Below, one piece after another: positions 39,527 through 62,410 of a stretch of DNA of 64,000 nucleotides (position 1 is the first letter of the stretch; each line of letters opens with the position of its first letter). Origin of the DNA: Candidatus Sulfopaludibacter sp. SbA3 (lineage in GTDB: Bacteria > Pseudomonadota > Alphaproteobacteria > Caulobacterales > Hyphomonadaceae); the NCBI GenBank assembly GCA_945913285.1, contig CAMEDD010000002.1, forward strand, positions 62,001 through 126,000, in the 5' to 3' direction. Both the position numbers and the translations under genes were made by a program. The notes under the pieces were generated by a model. That model was not told where the DNA came from. It saw nothing but the letters and a program-made list of their open reading frames with translations, and made no database searches.

Positions 39527-40282
39527 TTACTCTTCAAATTCGTCAAAATCTGGGAGATCTTCGTACGCATCGGCCTCATTCAGTTTTCCATTAGCGATCG
39601 CTGCCTGACGCTGAGATGAATAAATCCGGCGGAGCGCGACGTAGGGTTCGGGTTGGGAATTCAATGCTTCGATCTGTTTATCGAAGCGCACACGGGCGTT
39701 GAGCCCGCCTATGAGGCCCATGCCTGCCTGGACAGCGACATCGGTATCATCGTCATTGTCGATCTGGACCCAGGTCAGCGGGTCAACCGCGCGGTCCACG
39801 CCTGCGCCGATCAGGTCGCGCGGCGTGGTCGGGCCGAGCAAGGGCAGAACCAGGAAGGGGCCGCTCCCGATCCCCCATACGCCGAGCGTCTGGCCGAAAT
39901 CTTCCGAATGGTCCTCGAAGCCAAAGTGTTCCGCCGCGTCCCAGAGGCCGAGGAGGCCCACTGTCGTGTTCAGCGTGAAGCGGGCGGCGGTGGTGCCGGC
40001 GCGGGACGGCTCGGCCTGCAGCAGGTCGTTGGCGAAGATGACCGGGCCGCCGAGATTGTCGAGGAAATCGCTGGCGCGGTCCCGGGCGAACGCCGGCGTG
40101 ACGGTCTTGTAGGCCATGGCCGCCGGGCGGAGGGCATATTTGTCGACCCCGTTGTTCAGGGCGAACATCTGCCGGTTAAAGCCCTCATACGGGTCGGCGA
40201 TTTCGCCGGGACCTTGGGCAGGGGCAGTCGCGCACGCCGATACGGCGAGTGAGGCCAAGGCGGCGCTGGCAGCATGTTTCAT
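39527..40282 (-). CDS. mlaA: MlaA (VacJ) outer-membrane lipoprotein
   Basis: This 251-aa lipoprotein has a lipobox VSAC (Cys17) and the MlaA domain: DPYEGFNRQMFALNNGVDK near residue 30, RASDFLDNLGGPVIFANDLLQ, and GPFLVLPLLGPTTPRDLIG near 145. MlaA removes mislocalised phospholipids from the outer leaflet and passes them to MlaC, encoded immediately downstream. The C-terminal tail is unusually acidic (DLPDFDEFEE). It is divergent from the ArsR-methyltransferase gene with 181 bases between. Confidence 0.93.
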   Translation of the reverse strand: MKHAASAALASLAVSACATAPAQGPGEIADPYEGFNRQMFALNNGVDKYALRPAAMAYKTVTPAFARDRASDFLDNLGGPVIFANDLLQAEPSRAGTTAARFTLNTTVGLLGLWDAAEHFGFEDHSEDFGQTLGVWGIGSGPFLVLPLLGPTTPRDLIGAGVDRAVDPLTWVQIDNDDDTDVAVQAGMGLIGGLNARVRFDKQIEALNSQPEPYVALRRIYSSQRQAAIANGKLNEADAYEDLPDFDEFEE

Positions 40283-40444
40283 AGGAGAGTTTCCTGAAAG
40301 AACGACTGATACATGGAGTTAAGGTGCAAAAGGTTCAACGGGCTCGCGACGCAACTCGGCAAGGTAGCGAGAATTTGATGCCACCGTCTTAATTCAGCAT
40401 TGGGTGGTCATGGCGGTTGTCCGGTGAGAAGCCGGTTGCCAGAT

Positions 40445-40466
40445 CATATAAAGGGATGTTTATATG
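40445..40466. promoter_or_regulatory. Operator-like palindrome overlapping the ArsR-methyltransferase start codon
   Basis: CATATAAA-GGGATG-TTTATATG is a perfect 8-6-8 inverted repeat. Its last three bases are the ATG of the ArsR-methyltransferase gene, and its first half and spacer contain the AAGGG ribosome-binding site. AT-rich 8+8 palindromes of this size are typical of ArsR-family dimers. The position predicts autorepression of the whole methionine operon. Confidence 0.72.
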
Positions 40467-41447
40467 CTTGGCATGAGCCCGGTCGAAGATCTTCTCGAGA
40501 AACTGAAAGCCGCCGGTGAGCCAACCCGGCTGCGCTTGCTCGCGCTGCTGCGCGATCATGACCTTTCGGTGGGCGAGCTGGTTCAGGTGCTCGGGCAGAG
40601 CCAGCCGCGACTGTCGCATCATCTCAAGAACCTCTCCGAAGCGGGCCTGGCCGAAAGGTTGCCGGAAGGGGCGTTTGTTTTCTACCGCGCGGCGCGGTCC
40701 GGGGCGGGGCTGGCGTTTCTGGACCCGCTGTTCCAGCAGGTCAGCCCCGACGCGCCCGAGTTTCAGGAAGACCGGGACAAGTTGCGGGATGTGATGCTGG
40801 CGCGCGCGGCCTCGGCGGAGACCTACTTTTCCAGCATCGCGGAGAACTGGGACTCGCTGCGGGCGCTGCATTTTCCGAACGAGGCAATCGAGGACACATT
40901 GCTTGAACTCGCCGGGAGCGGGCCGCACCGGCGCGTGGTGGATTTCGGCACGGGCACTGGCCGGATGCTGTTGCTCTTTTCCGGGCTGGCAGTTGAGGCT
41001 GAGGGCATCGATTTCAGTCATCGGATGCTGACCATGGCGCGGGCCAATCTGGAGCGTGCGGGCGTGAGCAACAGCCGAGTGCGGTTTGGCGATGTGTCGG
41101 CCGCGCCTTTCGAGAATGCCTCGGCCGATCTCGTGATCGTGCACCAGGTGCTGCATTACCTCGATGCGCCGGGCGATGCCATTGCCGAGGCGGCGCGCAT
41201 CCTGATGCCGGGCGGAAAGCTGCTGGTGATCGACTTTGCGCCGCATGATCTTGAATTCCTGCGGGCTGAGCATGGTCACCGCCGGCTTGGCGTGCGCCAT
41301 GACGCCTTGTCCGAATGGGCGTACGCGGCAGGGCTGAAGCTCGAGGCGCCGCGGTCGTTTGATCCACCGGCGCCGGATGCGCCCGGCCTTACAGTCAACA
41401 TCTGGCGGGCGATCAAGCCTTCCATCGCCAAAGCGAGGGCGGCATGA
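40464..41447 (+). CDS. ArsR-family regulator fused to a SAM-dependent methyltransferase domain
   Basis: This 327-aa protein has an ArsR winged helix at residues 1-95 (LKAAGEPTRLRLLALLRDHDLSVGEL, then recognition helix QSQPRLSHHLKNLSEAGL), with no metal-binding CxC. A class I methyltransferase domain covers about 130-300 (VVDFGTGTGRML as SAM loop, VRFGDVSAAPF, VLHYLDAPGDAIAEA, LMPGGKLLVIDF). ArsR proteins of the SahR type are known to sense S-adenosylhomocysteine and control methionine-cycle genes. The fused SAM/SAH-binding fold and the ATGA coupling to metF support such a sensor role here. Whether the methyltransferase domain is catalytic is unknown. Confidence 0.88.
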   Translation: MLGMSPVEDLLEKLKAAGEPTRLRLLALLRDHDLSVGELVQVLGQSQPRLSHHLKNLSEAGLAERLPEGAFVFYRAARSGAGLAFLDPLFQQVSPDAPEFQEDRDKLRDVMLARAASAETYFSSIAENWDSLRALHFPNEAIEDTLLELAGSGPHRRVVDFGTGTGRMLLLFSGLAVEAEGIDFSHRMLTMARANLERAGVSNSRVRFGDVSAAPFENASADLVIVHQVLHYLDAPGDAIAEAARILMPGGKLLVIDFAPHDLEFLRAEHGHRRLGVRHDALSEWAYAAGLKLEAPRSFDPPAPDAPGLTVNIWRAIKPSIAKARAA

Positions 41448-42358
41448 TCCGCACACTGACACAATCTGACCGCAACGCCGAGCCGCTGCGCGTCTCGTTC
41501 GAGTTCTTTCCGCCAAAAAGCGAAGCGATGGCGACGCGGCTTTGGGATACCGTCAAAAGGCTGGAGCCGATGGCGCCGGATTTCGTGTCCGTGACTTATG
41601 GTGCAGGTGGCTCGACGCGTGAGCGAACACACGACACCGTGCGCCGGATTGCGGCGGAGACGCCGCTGCGCCCGGCGGCGCACCTGACCTGCGTTTCGGC
41701 GACGAAAGAGGAAGTGCTGGCGATTGCCGAAGCCTACTGGCAGGCCGGCGTGCAGCATATCGTGGCGCTGCGCGGCGATCCGCCGGCGGGCATGGGCACG
41801 AAGTATGAGCCGCATCCGGGCGGGTTCCTAGACTCGGTCGATCTCATCCGTGGGCTGAGGGCGCACCGGCCAGAGCTTGGAAAGTGTTTCGAGATTTCGG
41901 TCTCCTGCTATCCGGAGCTGCATCCCGAGAACCAGGGCTGGAGTGCGGAGATTGCGTTTCTGAAGGCGAAGCAGGATGCGGGGGCGGACCGGGCGATCAC
42001 CCAGTTCTTCTTCGAGCCCGAGGTCTATTTCGAGTTCCTGGAGCGCGCGCGGACGGGCGGCGTGACGCTGCCGATTGTGCCGGGCATCATGCTGCAGCCG
42101 AACTTCACCGGCCTGAAGCGCATTTCGGCGTTGTGCGGCGCGACCGTGCCGCATTGGCTGGAGCGGCTCTATGAGGGCCTCGAGGAAGATGACGAGACGC
42201 GCGATCTCGTGACAGCGACCGTAGCGGCAGAGCTTTGCCACAAGCTGCATGAGCGAGGCGTGCGCGACTTCCACTTCTATACGCTGAACCGGGCAAGCCT
42301 CGCACTTTCAACGTGCCGGCTGCTGGGCCTCAAGCCCCAATCCACAAAGGCGGCATGA
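41444..42358 (+). CDS. metF: Methylenetetrahydrofolate reductase
   Basis: This 304-aa FAD enzyme reduces 5,10-methylene-THF to 5-methyl-THF, the methyl donor for MetH. Family blocks: [13 protein letters not shown] near residue 18, [16 protein letters not shown] near 47, [11 protein letters not shown] near 78, ALRGDPP near 108, [12 protein letters not shown] near 180 and PGIMLQPNF near 215. It is coupled by ATGA to the regulator upstream and to the metH homocysteine module downstream. Confidence 0.96.
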
Positions 42359-43419
42359 TTATGGACGCGATGACAAGAGTTCCCGCACTTGAAGCCGAAG
42401 CGGCGAAGCGCATCCTGATCCTTGATGGCGCGATGGGTACGATGATCCAGACGTATTCGCTCAACGAAGAAGACTTCCGTGGGCAGAGGTTTGCGGACTG
42501 GGCCTCGCCGCTGCGCGGGAATAATGACCTGCTCAACCTGACGCGGCCGGACATTATCGCGGCCATCCATGCGCAGTACTACGAGGCCGGCGCGGATTTC
42601 GTCGAAACAAACACGTTCAGCGCGACGACGATCGCGATGGCGGACTACCGGATGGAAGCGCTGGCGGATGAGATCGCTGCGGAGGGGGCGCGGATTGCGC
42701 GCGAGGTGGCGGACAGGCTAGAGGCGGAGGATGGCAAGCCGCGCGGCGTGCTGGGGGCGATCGGGCCGACGAACAAGACGCTGTCGCTGTCGCCGAAGGT
42801 CAGTGATCCTGGCTACCGGGATGTGACGTTCGACCAGGTGCGCGAGGCCTATGCGGCGCAGGCGCGGGCGATGGCGCCGTTCATCGACATGTTCCTGATC
42901 GAGACGGTGTTCGACACACTGAATGCCAAGGCGGCGATCAAGGCGCTGATCGATCTGCGTGAGCAGGAAGGGATTGATCTGCCGATAATCATATCGGGCA
43001 CGATCACGGATGCTTCCGGCCGGACGCTCAGTGGGCAGACAGCCGAGGCGTTCTGGAACTCGGTGCGCCATGCACGGCCCTGGGCAATCGGCCTCAACTG
43101 CGCGCTCGGCGCTGACCTGATGCGCCAGCATATCGCGGCCATATCGCGCGTGGCCGATACGCGCGTGATTGCTTATCCGAATGCTGGCCTTCCGAACGCG
43201 TTCGGCGCCTATGACGAGACGCCGGGCCAGACGGCGGTGCATCTTGGCGAGTGGGCGAAGAGCGGGCTGGTCAATGTGCTCGGCGGGTGTTGCGGCACGA
43301 CGCCGCCGCATATCGCGGCGATTGCGGGCGCAGCTAAGGGCAAGGCGCCGCGCACGGTGCCGGTGCTGAAGCCGGCGCTGAGACTGTCCGGGCTCGAACC
43401 GTTTGAAGTGGCGTCCTGA
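42355..43419 (+). CDS. metH: Cobalamin-dependent methionine synthase, homocysteine-binding module
   Basis: This 354-aa stand-alone homocysteine S-methyltransferase domain is the first quarter of classical MetH. It shows [18 protein letters not shown] at residues 20-37, [12 protein letters not shown] near 84, and zinc-ligand cysteines in GLNCALGA and [11 protein letters not shown] near 325. The ATG at 42355 overlaps the metF stop, with AAAGGCGG upstream. The folate, B12 and activation domains lie in a separate gene (43841-46477), with a GGCT-like gene between. A split MetH is known in Caulobacter relatives. Confidence 0.93.
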
Positions 43420-43844
43420 TGGGCGCTGAGGTTCGCAGCGGCGACCTGTTTGTGTTCTACGGCCTCCTGAAGCAGGGGGCCGCAGGCGCGCCGCCATGGC
43501 TGGACCTTGCGGGTGCGGGTACGTTCGGGACGCCGTGCCGGTTTCGCGGACGGATGGTGGATCTGGGCGGCTTTCCGGGCGTGGTGGCAGGCGAGACGCT
43601 GTGCCACGGACTGCGCTGGCGCGTGCGCGATGCCGGCATCGTGCCGGAGATGGACGACTTCGAGGATTTGACGGATGATCCGGTCAAGTCGCTCTACTGG
43701 CGTGGGCTGGTGACTTTGCGCGATGATGCCGGGGCGGCGACGGGCGAAGACGCTTGGGTCTACTGGTTTAATCAGTCCGTGGACGGATATCCGCCTGTTG
43801 TGGATGGAAACTGGCCGCTGGATGCGGGGAAAACAAGAAAATGA
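43419..43844 (+). CDS. Gamma-glutamylcyclotransferase-like (AIG2/GGCT fold) protein
   Basis: This 141-aa protein has the GGCT-like fold: [13 protein letters not shown] at the start (consensus YGxLkxG), DLGGFPGVV near residue 48, a candidate catalytic Glu in MDDFEDL near 86, and DAWVYWFNQ near 110. GGCT enzymes release 5-oxoproline from gamma-glutamyl compounds. It is inserted between the two metH modules, coupled at both ends (TGATG and ATGA), so it is expressed in fixed ratio with MetH. A link to homocysteine/glutathione or folate polyglutamate turnover is speculation. Confidence 0.75.
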
Positions 43845-46477
43845 CGAACTCCTCCCAGAGCTTCATCAATATCGGTGAACGCACGAACGTCACCGGCTCG
43901 GCCGTGTTCCGGAAGATGATCACCGATGGCCGCTATGGCGACGCCGTCGAGGTCGCGCGCCAGCAGGTGGAGAGCGGCGCGCAGGTCATCGACGTCAACA
44001 TGGACGAAGGGATGCTGGACGGCGTCCTCGCCATGACAACCTTCCTGAACCTGATCGCGGCGGAGCCCGACATTGCGCGCGTGCCGGTGATGATCGACTC
44101 CTCCAAATGGGAGGTAATCGAGGCCGGCCTGAAATGTGTGCAGGGCAAGGGCATCGTCAATTCGATCTCGATGAAGGAAGGCGAAGCGAAGTTCACCGAG
44201 CAGGCGCGGGCGTGTCTCTCATACGGTGCGGCGGTCGTCGTGATGGCGTTCGACGAGGTGGGGCAGGCCGACACGGCGGCGCGCAAGATCGAGATCTGCC
44301 AGAGGGCCTACCGCATCCTGACGCAAGAGGTCGGCTTTGCACCGCAGGACATCATCTTCGACCCGAACATATTTGCAGTGGCGACAGGGATCGAGGAGCA
44401 TAACAATTACGCGCTGGACTTCATTGAAGCGGCGAAGGTCATCCGCGAGATCTGCCCTGGCTGCCATATCTCGGGGGGGCTTTCGAACGTGTCGTTCAGC
44501 TTCCGCGGTAATGAGCCCGTGCGCCGGGCGATGCATTCCGTGTTTCTCTATTATGCGATCCCGGCTGGCATGGACATGGGCATCGTGAATGCCGGTCAGC
44601 TTGACATTTATGATGACATCGAGCCGGAACTGCGCGCGCGTGTCGAGGACGTGATCCTCAATCGCCGGGCGGACGCGACCGACCGGCTGCTGGAGATTGC
44701 CGAACGGTTCAAGGGTCAGAAGGGCAAGACGCAGGAGAAGGACCTCTCCTGGCGCGAGGCGCCCGTGGCCAAGCGACTTGAGTATGCGCTGATCCACGGT
44801 ATCTCGGAGTTCATTGATCTGGATACGGAAGAAGCGCGCCTCGCCGTGGAGCGTCCGCTCCATGTGATCGAAGGACCGCTGATGGACGGCATGAATGTCG
44901 TCGGAGACCTGTTCGGGTCGGGCAAGATGTTCCTGCCGCAGGTGGTGAAGTCGGCGCGGGTGATGAAGCAGGCGGTGGCCTGGCTTGAGCCCTTCATGGA
45001 AGAGGAAAAGAAGCGCCTCGGCACCGAGGCGAAGTCGAACGGCCGCGTCCTGATGGCGACCGTGAAGGGGGATGTGCACGATATCGGCAAGAATATTGTC
45101 GGCGTCGTGCTCGCCTGTAACGGTTATGACATCATCGACCTGGGCGTGATGGTGCCGGCCGAAAAGATCCTCGACATAGCGGTGCGTGAAAAGGTGGATA
45201 TCATCGGCCTTTCGGGCCTGATCACGCCCAGCCTTGACGAGATGGTGTATGTGGCGAGCGAGATGCAGCGGCGCGGCATGACGCAGCCTTTGCTGATTGG
45301 CGGGGCGACGACGAGCCCGGCGCATACGGCGGTGAAGATTGATCCCGTGATCCGCTGCGCGCCTGTGATCCATGTCGCCGATGCGAGCCGCGCGGTAGGC
45401 GTGGTCTCGACCCTGCTGAACGAGGACGATAAGCCGGCGCTGATCGCGCAGACGCGGGCGCGCTATGAGCGGATGCGCGAGGCACGCAAGGATGGTCCGC
45501 CCAAGGCGCGGTTGCCGCTGGCGGTGGCCCGCAAGGCGGCGTTCCGGCCGGATTGGGCGGGCTATGCGGCGCCGAAGCCGACTTTCACCGGTGCGCGCAG
45601 TTTCAAGGATATCGATCTGGCGACGCTGGCGCGCTACATCGACTGGACGCCTTATTTCTCGGCCTGGGACCTTGCGGGGCATTATCCGGAAATCCTGCAG
45701 GATCCGGTGGTCGGCGAGGCGGCGCGGGGCCTCTGGCGCGATACCGAAGCGATGATGCAGCAGCTGATCGGCGAGGCCTGGTTCAGGCCGAAAGCGGTGG
45801 TCGGCTTCTGGGGCGCCAATGCGGTGGGCGACGACATCCGGCTTGAGACCGGTGATACGTTCTTCACGCTCCGCCAACAGATGAAAAAGGATAATGAGCG
45901 CGCGAACTATGCGCTGTCGGATTTTGTTGCGCCGGAAGGCGAGGACTGGATTGGCGGGTTCTGTGTGACGGCTGGCCCGGAAGCGGATGTCATTGCTGAA
46001 GACTTCAAGGCCAAGGGCGATGATTATTCCTCGATCATGTGCAAGGCGCTGGCGGACCGGTTTGCCGAAGCGATGGCGGAATACATGCACGAGCGCGTGC
46101 GCAAGGAACTCTGGGCCTATGCGCCCGATGAGGCCCTTACAACGAATGAGCTGATCGGCGAGAAGTATTGCGGCATCCGTCCGGCGCCGGGCTATCCCTC
46201 GCAGCCTGAGCATACGGAGAAGGCGACGCTCTTCCGGTTGCTCGATGCGGAGAAGCACATCGGCGTGTCGCTGACGTCGAGCTATGCGATGAGCCCTGCC
46301 GCGTCCGTATCCGGACTGTATCTCGCGCATCCGGACGCGATCTACTTTGCGCTTGGGCGTATCGAGCGCGATCAGGTGGAAGATTATGCGCGGCGCAAGG
46401 GATGGGACATCAAGAAGGCCGAGCGCTGGCTGGCGCCGGTGCTGAATTATGATCCTTACGTGCTGGTCGAGGCCTGA
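43841..46477 (+). CDS. metH: Cobalamin-dependent methionine synthase, folate/B12/reactivation module
   Basis: This 878-aa protein has the last three parts of MetH. A pterin-binding TIM barrel ([13 protein letters not shown] near residue 8, [14 protein letters not shown] near 86) is followed by the cap and B12-binding domain with the cobalt-ligand His in [14 protein letters not shown] (near 408) and [13 protein letters not shown]. The SAM-dependent reactivation domain ends the protein ([15 protein letters not shown] near 785, [18 protein letters not shown] near 828). With the separate homocysteine module it makes a complete methionine synthase. The start overlaps the GGCT-like gene (ATGA). Confidence 0.96.
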
Positions 46478-46554
46478 GGGGCTCTCCCCTAGTGACGCAG
46501 CCCCGAGTCGGGCTAGACCGGCGCAGAGCCAACTTGGCCGAGACGGAGCGCCAC

Positions 46555-47979
46555 ATGCCGAAAGCCCGCTTGCGAAGCGAGAACGCGAAGATCATCGCGA
46601 CGCTTGGGCCGCGCAGCCGCTCGCTGAAGGAAATCCGGGCGCTGGCGGAGGCGGGCGCGGATGTGTTCCGGCTGAATTTCTCGCATGGAAGCCATGAAGA
46701 TCATCGCCTGACACTTGAAATGGTGCGCAAGGTCGAGGGCCTGGTTGGCCGCCCGCTCGCGGCGATGGCGGACCTGCAGGGGCCGAAGGTCCGCGTTGGG
46801 AGTTTTCCCGGCGGCGAGATGAAAGTCGCGTGGCGCAGCGAATATCCGCTGGTAGCGGCGGCGACTACCGACGCTTCCGGCACGATCCCCGTGCCGCACA
46901 AAGCGATCCTCGACCAGCTGGCCGTCGGCGACACGATTCTCGTGGATGACGGCAAGCTGATCTTCACGGTGATGGCGGCCGGCGCTGCGCCGCGTGTTCG
47001 GGCCGATGTGCCGGGCAAGATTTCCGACAAGAAGGGCTTCACGGTGCGCGGCAAGGCATTGCCGGTGAAGGCGCTGACTGACAAGGACAAAGCGGACCTC
47101 GAATTCGCGCTGTCGATCGGCGTGGATATTGTGGCGCTGTCCTTTGTGCAGTCGGTGTCCGATATCTCTATGACGAAGGCGATCATCCGGGGCCGGGTCC
47201 CGCTGATTGCAAAACTGGAAAAGCCGGCCGCGCTCGGTGAACTGCGCGAGATCATCCACGCAGCGGACGGGGTGATGGTGGCGCGGGGCGATCTGGGGGT
47301 CGAGTACCCGCCGGAGGAAGTGCCGGTGATCCAGCGCCGAATCATCCGCGCTGCGCGCGCGGCCGGGCGGCCGGTGATCGTGGCGACGCAGATGCTGGAA
47401 TCGATGATCGAAAATTCGGCGCCGACGCGGGCCGAGGCGTCGGATGTCGCGACCGCGATCTATCAGGGTGCGGACGCTGTGATGTTGTCGGCGGAGACGG
47501 CGGTGGGCCGGCATCCGGCGACGGCGGTAGCGATCATGTCGCGCATTATCCGGGCGACCGAGAATGCAGAGGACTATCGCAGGTCGCTGATACAGTTCGA
47601 CGGGGATTCGACGGAAACCAGCGCCATCGACGTGATCGCCAAGACGGCCACCGAAATGGCGGAAGCGGAGGGTGCGGCCGCGCTGGCCTTGCGCACGGGG
47701 GCCTTCGAACGGCTCGCACGGTTTGCGCGCGTGCGGGGCACGACACCTATACTCTATGGCTCTATGGACCAGAGCCGCGTGCGACAGGCGTGTCTGCTCT
47801 GGGGCGTGCATCCGCAGAAGCTCGATGCAGCAGTCGAGAATTGGTACCGCGCATTGATGAAGGCTGCCGGGCTTGATGGGCGTGTAGCCTATGCGCGTTG
47901 GGCCGGAGACGACACGCGCTTTGCCTGGGAGATTGGTATCGGCAAGGGCCTCGATGGCAAGCCGATCACTGGCGTATGA
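46555..47979 (+). CDS. pyk: Pyruvate kinase
   Basis: This 474-aa enzyme makes ATP and pyruvate from PEP. Motifs: KIIATLGPRS at residues 12-21, RLNFSHGSHEDH near 41, the K+/Mg2+ site AKLEKPAALG near 220, MVARGDLGVEYP near 240 and VIVATQMLESMIENSAPTRAE near 282. I use ATG 46555 with GGAG upstream; the open frame runs back 21 codons without a good site. Its 3' end overlaps the convergent protease gene by 14 bases. Confidence 0.95.
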   Translation: MPKARLRSENAKIIATLGPRSRSLKEIRALAEAGADVFRLNFSHGSHEDHRLTLEMVRKVEGLVGRPLAAMADLQGPKVRVGSFPGGEMKVAWRSEYPLVAAATTDASGTIPVPHKAILDQLAVGDTILVDDGKLIFTVMAAGAAPRVRADVPGKISDKKGFTVRGKALPVKALTDKDKADLEFALSIGVDIVALSFVQSVSDISMTKAIIRGRVPLIAKLEKPAALGELREIIHAADGVMVARGDLGVEYPPEEVPVIQRRIIRAARAAGRPVIVATQMLESMIENSAPTRAEASDVATAIYQGADAVMLSAETAVGRHPATAVAIMSRIIRATENAEDYRRSLIQFDGDSTETSAIDVIAKTATEMAEAEGAAALALRTGAFERLARFARVRGTTPILYGSMDQSRVRQACLLWGVHPQKLDAAVENWYRALMKAAGLDGRVAYARWAGDDTRFAWEIGIGKGLDGKPITGV

Positions 47980-61006: not shown

Positions 61007-62410
61007 TTACATCTTGTAGTACATGTCGAACTCGACCGGGTGCGGATGAAGTTCGTAGCGCATGTTCTCTTCCATCTTCAGCTCGATGTAGGCGTCGATC
61101 TGGTCGTCGTCGAACACGCCGCCCTTCTTGAGGAAGGCGCGGTCTGCATCAAGAGCGCCGAGGGCTTCGCGCAGCGAGCCGCAGACTTGCGGGATCTTCG
61201 CAGCTTCGGCCGGCGGCAGGTCGTAGAGGTCCTTGTCCATCGCGTCGCCGGGATGGATCTTGTTCTCGATACCGTCGAGGCCGGCCATCAGCAGGGCCGC
61301 GAAGGCGAGGTAGGGGTTCGCCATCGGATCCGGGAAGCGGGCTTCGATTCGCTTGGCTTTCGGGTTCGAGCCGAACGGAATGCGGATTGAGGCCGAGCGG
61401 TTGCGCGACGAGTAGGCGAGCATCACAGGCGCTTCGTAACCCGGCACGAGACGCTTGTAGCTGTTCGTCGACGGGTTGGTGATCGCATTGAGCGCCTTGG
61501 CGTGCTTGATGATGCCGCCGATGTAGTAGAGGCACATGTCGCTCAGATCGGCGTATTTGTTGCCAGCGAACAGCGGTTTTCCGCCCTGCCAGATCGACTG
61601 GTGGACGTGCATGCCAGAGCCGTTGTCCTTGTACATCGGTTTCGGCATGAAGGTTGCCGTCTTGCCGTAGGACGCAGCCACGTTGTGGATCACGTACTTA
61701 TAGAGCTGCATCCGGTCGGCCATCACGGTGAGGGTCGAGAATTTCAGGCCCAGCTCGTGCTGCGCGGGCGCCACTTCGTGGTGATGCTTTTCCGGATCGA
61801 GGCCGATTTCTCCCATGATCGTCAGCATTTCGCCGCGCATGTCCTGCTCGGAGTCGATCGGCGGCACGGGGAAGTAGCCACCCTTCGGGCCTGGCCGGTG
61901 GCCGAGGTTGCCCATCGGGTATTCCTTGCCGGTGTTGATCGGCAGTTCGGAGGAGTCGTAGCTGTAGCCGGTCTTGTGCGGCTCAACCGACCAGCGGACG
62001 TCGTCGAAGATGAAGAACTCTGCTTCGGGGCCGAAATAGACGGTGTCGCCAATGCCCGAGGCCTTCACATAGGCTTCGGCTTTCTTGGCGGTGGTCCGCG
62101 GGTCGCGGTTGTATGGCTGGCCCGTGATCGGATCGAGTACGTCGCACATCACAGCCAGGGTCGATTGCTGGAAGAACGGATCGATGATGGCTGTTGCCTG
62201 ATCCGGCATCAGAAGCATGTCAGACTCGTTGATGGCTTTCCAGCCGGCGATGGACGAGCCATCGAACATCTGGCCTTCGGAGAAAAAGTCTTCGCCGACC
62301 ATGTTCTTGTGGAACGTGACGTGCTGCATCTTGCCGCGCGGATCGGTGAAGCGAAGGTCTACGTACTGGACGTCCTGATCCTTCATCATTTTGTAGAGTT
62401 CATCAGCCAT
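61007..62410 (-). CDS. glnA: Glutamine synthetase type I
   Basis: This 467-aa GS-I beta enzyme assimilates ammonia into glutamine. Motifs: FDGSSIAGW near residue 50, [12 protein letters not shown] near 127, [14 protein letters not shown] near 208, [12 protein letters not shown] near 265 and the adenylylation site Tyr396 in [11 protein letters not shown]. The last points to GlnE-type control. It lies 67 bases downstream of glnB in the classic glnB-glnA order of alphaproteobacteria. The strong UUCG terminator ends the operon. Confidence 0.98.

Follow-up and report, generated by a model that had tools for sequence, protein, structure and literature searches.

A probable SahR-type regulator at the head of a methionine operon

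We analysed a 64,000-nt stretch of DNA (positions 62,001 to 126,000 of contig CAMEDD010000002.1, assembly GCA_945913285.1; hereafter the window) from a genome of the Hyphomonadaceae filed as Candidatus Sulfopaludibacter sp. SbA3. From position 40,445 onwards it carries a palindrome and five genes in the order sahR, metF, metH N-part, a GGACT-like gene and metH C-part (Table 1). We interpret the system as SahR of a Hyphomonas relative, a transcriptional repressor of the S-adenosylmethionine (SAM) cycle whose operator would lie over the core promoter and which would be released by S-adenosylhomocysteine (SAH). The probability of this reading is, in our estimate, about 0.85.

An ArsR-methyltransferase fusion had been described in an earlier note on this DNA, and both domains were indeed found by profile match in the protein encoded at 40464-41447. 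ArsR HTH_5 covers residues 20-64 and Methyltransf_11 residues 159-255 (numbered from ATG 40464), and NF033788 (HTH_metalloreg) scored 69.8 against a cut-off of 55. The window protein has no cysteine, and the metal-binding cysteines of thiol-based ArsR/SmtB metal or arsenite sensors are thus absent from it. The SAM/SAH-binding signature D157-x-G-T-G-T-G163 and D180 (numbered from ATG 40473) were invariant in all 37 aligned proteins, namely that of the window and those of 36 of 47 named loci. The search for named loci had given 52; five of these, L111-L115 at the end of the ranking, matched weakly and only in part and were left out. In the methyltransferase domain, H224, H228, H258 and H269 were likewise invariant (37/37). 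To our knowledge, no methyl acceptor for SahR has been described.

The predicted structure (predicted local distance difference test 88.3, predicted template-modelling score 0.80) comprises a winged helix, a long helix (95-130) and a methyltransferase fold. As modelled, the second domain is best matched by 1xxl_A (Z 22.6, 2.3 Å, 182 aligned) and also matches the SAH-bound methyltransferase 5gm1_B (Z 20.9, 3.9 Å, 190 aligned). No solved structure of the whole fusion was found among the 35 structure sequences at E <=1e-10, each of which has its best stretch over one domain only. Among the 57 at E <=0.001, two weak matches run across both domains (residues 21-261), the methyltransferases 8ftr (E 1.4e-4) and 8ftv (1.5e-4). 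Among the 50 best Foldseek matches, those over the full length, mostly O-methyltransferases, had a query template-modelling score of about 0.38-0.47 and a root-mean-square deviation of 16-23 Å; none of them therefore reproduces the domain arrangement.

Of the order's 150 genomes, 148 (including that of the window) contain a SahR orthologue at E <=1e-20. Among named relatives, the closest come from a Hyphomonadaceae assembly (96%) and from Hyphomonas assemblies (85-87%). Three contigs titled Acidobacteria or Candidatus Sulfopaludibacter (L065, L066, L069) carry a Hyphomonas-like met operon with a sahR 86-87% identical; these are probably misnamed or misbinned assemblies.

In all 47 named loci sahR adjoins metF, which lies downstream. 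The earlier note had the regulator translationally coupled to metF and both metH modules. Stop and start codons do overlap at the junctions, as this would suggest, but the GGACT-like gene between the two metH parts had been missed, and at the metF/metH junction the overlap exists with the metH ATG 42355 and not with the start at 42361. The GGACT/AIG2-like gene, whose product gave no NCBIfam match, had matches in 14 of the 47 named loci, and in each of these SahR shares at least 57% identity with that of the window. A pyruvate kinase gene (46492-47979, same strand) starts close behind metH and could share a transcript with the met operon.

Table 1. Features of the sahR-metF-metH locus, in positions of the window.
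Feature	Position	Strand	Remarks
Putative -35-like box, TTGCCA	40436..40441	+	directly upstream of the operator
Predicted SahR operator, CATATAAA-GGGATG-TTTATATG	40445..40466	.	perfect 8-nt arms, conserved core
sahR, ArsR winged helix and class I methyltransferase-fold effector domain	40473..41447	+	alternative start ATG 40464
metF, methylenetetrahydrofolate reductase	41444..42358	+	PF02219, E 6.5e-88; start overlaps sahR stop
metH N-part, homocysteine S-methyltransferase module	42355..43419	+	start 42355 or 42361; PF02574, E 4.4e-92 (from 42361)
GGACT/AIG2-like small protein	43419..43844	+	PF06094, E 2.9e-11; overlaps both neighbours
metH C-part: pterin, B12-binding and activation domains	43841..46477	+	PF00809, PF02607, PF02310, PF02965

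Predicted operator, putative promoter and probable start of sahR

The 8-6-8 perfect palindrome reported before is present at 40445-40466 and has the form CATATAAA-N6-TTTATATG. With up to three mismatches allowed it is the sole match within the window, and none of 100 shuffles yielded one. We compared it across 42 sahR regions: the 30 best loci from the 148 matching genomes (that of the window among them) and 12 named regions, chosen from the 47 as Hyphomonadaceae-type after same-contig lookalikes had been removed by eye. The operator core TATAAA/TTTATA is nearly invariant, each position being conserved in at least 41 of the 42. All of the 30 best order-wide loci have an upstream site at <=3 mismatches. 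Among the 47 named loci the best site upstream of sahR shows <=2 mismatches in 30 and <=4 in 45, the exceptions being L104 (5) and L106 (6). Furthermore, 40 regions were hand-picked from the order's 150 genomes, and a clear site (score >=19/24) stood in 15 of 20 sahR and 12 of 20 ahcY regions. Several members of another family of the order (f4) carry a SahR orthologue but showed no palindrome of this type ahead of sahR (L133, L134, L135, L145, L148) or ahcY (L151, L152, L155); the DNA specificity of SahR may have changed in them.

The regulator had been thought to start inside the palindrome, which would then cover its own ribosome-binding site. This is probably wrong, with an in-frame ATG at the palindrome's end in only 7 of the 42 regions, the window's among them. 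In 40 of the 42 the script found an ATG directly after the palindrome; the remaining two are L078, with GTG, and the window itself, with ATG 40473, which fell outside the 40 because the script's start walk began upstream of that codon. The start after the palindrome is without a Shine-Dalgarno (SD) site in 42 of 42 regions (anti-SD energy +0.3 to +1.5 kcal/mol, the median at random window positions being -2.2 kcal/mol). For example, the closest named relative, L064 (96% identical), has the spacer TGAATG and no SD (+0.4 kcal/mol). Conservation across the 42 regions thus disfavours a start inside the palindrome, and sahR probably starts at ATG 40473.

All 42 regions have a TTG that begins 8 or 9 nt ahead of the palindrome, and upstream of it the sequence is little conserved. 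A single island of conservation extends from 8 nt before the palindrome to just past it, and the right arm is AT-rich. We infer that this island is the core promoter holding the operator, with a -35-like TTGC box and the -10 element within the right arm. Because the island looks like a core promoter that contains the operator, the palindrome is probably not part of the sahR mRNA, which would start at or near ATG 40473 and would be leaderless. In Caulobacter, leaderless mRNAs are common, 375 having been reported (PMC4117421).

A second predicted operator at ahcY-purU-metK

Across the 3.02-Mb genome (93% complete) the pattern occurred at <=3 mismatches in two places, at sahR and, with one mismatch and on another contig than the window, at the start of ahcY; the reversed pattern, used as control, gave 0 matches. 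The gene ahcY, named from sequence, would encode SAH hydrolase. Downstream follow a purU-like gene (formyltetrahydrofolate deformylase-like, likewise named from sequence and not by family search) and metK (TIGR01034, E 5.2e-154). The three genes share a strand and are separated by 15 and 27 nt; a single operator can therefore serve them all, and their spacing suggests co-transcription. With a looser pattern the rest of the genome was at chance level (15+11 matches vs 12+10 in the control), the best remainder being L118 with 2 mismatches. Since only two sites rise above chance, and these head the two operons, the predicted regulon is sahR-metF-metH together with ahcY-purU-metK, which completes the published SahR core set. 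Of the genes for which further sites had been proposed, ahcY thus has one and metK is reached via the same operon, but no site was found at a metX-type gene.

The purU-like gene lies at 2701-3558 of L003 (G000:C67), minus strand, between ahcY and metK. Among the 15 loci L034-L048, 14 (all but L039) have a match to it next to ahcY; L049-L061 have none there, and in three of these metK follows ahcY directly. A genome of another family (L037, L173; G144:C27) carries a Hyphomonas-type ahcY (92%), purU (85%) and metK (90%); the operator there covers the start codon, and the copy looks like transfer or assembly contamination. Elsewhere in the window's genome, a SAM-II (SAM_alpha) riboswitch (L130, G000:C1:57689-57766; 80.2 bits) stands before a MetA-like gene, named from sequence, an arrangement of the type described in Hyphomonadaceae (Leyn 2014, PMC4239095). 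An Rfam scan of the window at gathering score gave no match, and the SAM-SAH riboswitch RF01727 had none in the genome; since the control genomes gave none either, this is no sign of its absence. SAH and SAM-II riboswitches serve the same pathway and metabolites as SahR, but they are RNA sensors.

The position of the ahcY operator differed among genomes. Of the 30 best ahcY loci examined in the window's genus and its sister genus, 28 have the site, the window's genome included (L062 and L063, without it, were dropped); one of the 28, L037, is from the other family mentioned above and looks transferred. In all 28 the operator covers the SD (AAAGGA) and the ATG, with an anti-SD energy of -5.5 or -5.7. 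The right arm reads TTGATATG in 28 of 28, carrying the TTG and breaking the stem; the mean fold energy of the 22 nt is -0.24 kcal/mol at ahcY vs -4.2 kcal/mol at sahR. Across the 28, neither the SD nor the ATG varies, and within the half-sites variation is confined to one left-arm position. These regions are not independent, because the change may have occurred once, in an ancestor, and been retained since. The distance from the ahcY operator to the match start downstream is 83-160 nt in other genomes, and in two further genera of the same family the operator again lies upstream, at -138 (L170) and -117 (L171). All 12 of the 20 hand-picked ahcY regions with a clear site have T at the deviating arm position. 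In two of them, L153 and L154, an in-frame ATG also ends the palindrome, and ahcY may start there. In these samples the base change thus accompanies the overlap with the ribosome-binding site.

A tentative scenario, which we hold to be possible though rather doubtful, is that in the ancestor of the genus and its sister genus the ahcY operator was shifted from a place about 80-160 nt upstream to its present one over the SD and start codon, and was kept there as a compromise between SD, ATG and half-site, one T-to-G base breaking the RNA stem and altering one half-site. If true, one base would set an expression hierarchy, tight for sahR-met and leakier for ahcY-metK, and SahR at ahcY would block the elongating polymerase and not initiation.

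Alternatively, the palindrome could form a hairpin in the mRNA and so mask the ribosome-binding site, whether SahR takes part or not. As RNA, the 22-nt palindrome has a fold energy of -4.4 kcal/mol (z -5.4), and its spacer contains an SD-like AAGGGA in the window species. In an 86-nt context the stem persists, yet the fold is not unusual (z -1.7; 13 of 200 shuffles were as good). Moreover, the SD-like spacer is not general among relatives, where the conserved start after the palindrome lacks an SD, and at ahcY, where operator and ribosome-binding site coincide, the stem is lost. Hairpin control is disfavoured by these three points, and we consider it very unlikely. The related idea of ribosome occlusion found no support: the sahR palindrome is probably untranscribed, and the ahcY arm is broken in all 28 regions where the site overlaps the ribosome-binding site.

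SahR among related regulators

SAH reportedly dissociates SahR from its operators, and the effector domain is said to be related to SAM-dependent methylases. SahR has been described as a regulator of the ArsR family that responds to SAH, with a palindromic site of 20 bp and a core regulon of sahR, ahcY, metH, metH2, metF and metK, and was predicted in Hyphomonadaceae (Leyn 2014, PMC4239095). The SAH dependence of Desulfovibrio SahR binding (Novichkov 2014) is cited in a paper on Ensifer aridi, whose own data support SahR autoregulation (PMC8877191), and the SahR motif changes in a taxon-specific way (PMC5343134). The window shares with SahR the ArsR helix-turn-helix with a methyltransferase-like domain, the intact SAM/SAH-binding motif, the palindrome of about 20 bp at its own gene, and two sites that head the core targets sahR, metF, metH, ahcY and metK. 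It differs from the published description in having two operators only, with metK reached through ahcY-purU-metK, in an operator that is apparently merged with the sahR core promoter, and in the ahcY operator of its genus and sister genus, which lies on SD and start codon.

The domains, the gene order, the operators with their conservation and the two-operon regulon come from the present analysis; the repressor role and SAH as effector are taken from published SahR work in other bacteria. By this analogy, a SahR dimer (as is general in the ArsR family) would bind the palindrome through its winged helices and cover the core promoter of sahR-metF-metH, so that its own operon is repressed; at the second site it would repress ahcY-purU-metK. 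When SAH accumulates, it would bind the methyltransferase-fold domain and SahR would leave the DNA, which would induce the genes that remove SAH and remake methionine and SAM. The core of the earlier note, direct feedback on the methyl cycle through a DNA-binding protein fused to a SAM/SAH-binding domain, agrees with published SahR, though not its variant by ribosome occlusion.

A methyltransferase-fold domain could in principle bind SAM or SAH, and the repressor might respond to SAM, as a relative of SamR. SamR is a distant SahR homologue on met genes whose effector was left open; it was described from Xanthomonadales only, with a 24-bp palindromic motif that has ATC-N10-GAT, a consensus shared with gamma-proteobacterial SahR (Leyn 2014, PMC4239095). 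The window operator does not have this form. By the wording of the same paper the SamR regulon is without ahcY, whereas ahcY has a site in the window's genome. Response to SAM in place of SAH is thus unlikely here.

In Brevundimonas sp. M20, an ArsR-methyltransferase fusion heads the same gene order, arsR-M, metF, HMT and metH (PMC10190100, 2023). An electrophoretic mobility shift assay (EMSA) showed binding of the protein to its own promoter, with the CTTTATATAAAG palindrome; it was also reported to have methylation activity and to increase arsenite resistance in E. coli, and was read as an arsenite methyltransferase (ArsR-M). Its proposed binding site includes C134, and the modelled arsenite contacts Q224 and Y228 (PMC10190100). 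The window protein could be of this kind and combine arsenite methylation with control of its own operon. Residues H223, Q224, H227, F254, R263 and H268 of that paper stand one position before the invariant or near-invariant H224, Q225, H228, F255, R264 and H269, and the window protein has Q225 and Y229 as equivalents of the modelled contacts. However, C134 has no counterpart: the window protein is cysteine-free, as are 13 of the 37 aligned relatives, and the family has no conserved cysteine column (best 14/37), so this part of the proposed site is missing. The given contacts Q224 and Y228 make the missing cysteine a weaker argument, and with their equivalents in place the arsenic reading is therefore no more than weakened. 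The arsenite assay reported for ArsR-M is left unexplained by the present data. Regulon and neighbours point to the SAM cycle, and the available text of PMC10190100 contains neither SahR nor the word 'mutant'. All in all, arsenite methylation as the function of this protein appears very unlikely.

Several observations weigh against our interpretation of the locus as a SahR system with the operator over the core promoter. The weaker sites of the distant named loci (3-6 mismatches, 17/47) barely beat the second-best stretch of their own region, which reaches 3-4 mismatches in some of them, and no clear site was found in 5 of the 20 sahR and 8 of the 20 ahcY hand-picked regions. A consensus scan of 40282-40500 for a canonical sigma-70 promoter found none. 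In addition, the AAGGGA before ATG 40464 is a good SD (-6.1 kcal/mol), and because of it the window strain could still use a start inside the palindrome, behind a short leader.

The regulator described here belongs to a known family and is well conserved. This account adds the geometry of the operator, the order ahcY-purU-metK and the likely double naming of the family, though the supplements of the SahR papers may already contain some of these points. The known SahR system fits, and a predicted regulon is given for one more organism. With the regulator-metF-metH-metH operon, the domain architecture and the pocket residues offset by one in common, SahR here and the Brevundimonas ArsR-M very likely belong to one orthologous family that goes by two names, SahR in one case and an arsenite-methylating protein in the other. 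The operators of sahR and ahcY are a small natural experiment on how operator sequence can double as part of a promoter or of a ribosome-binding site.

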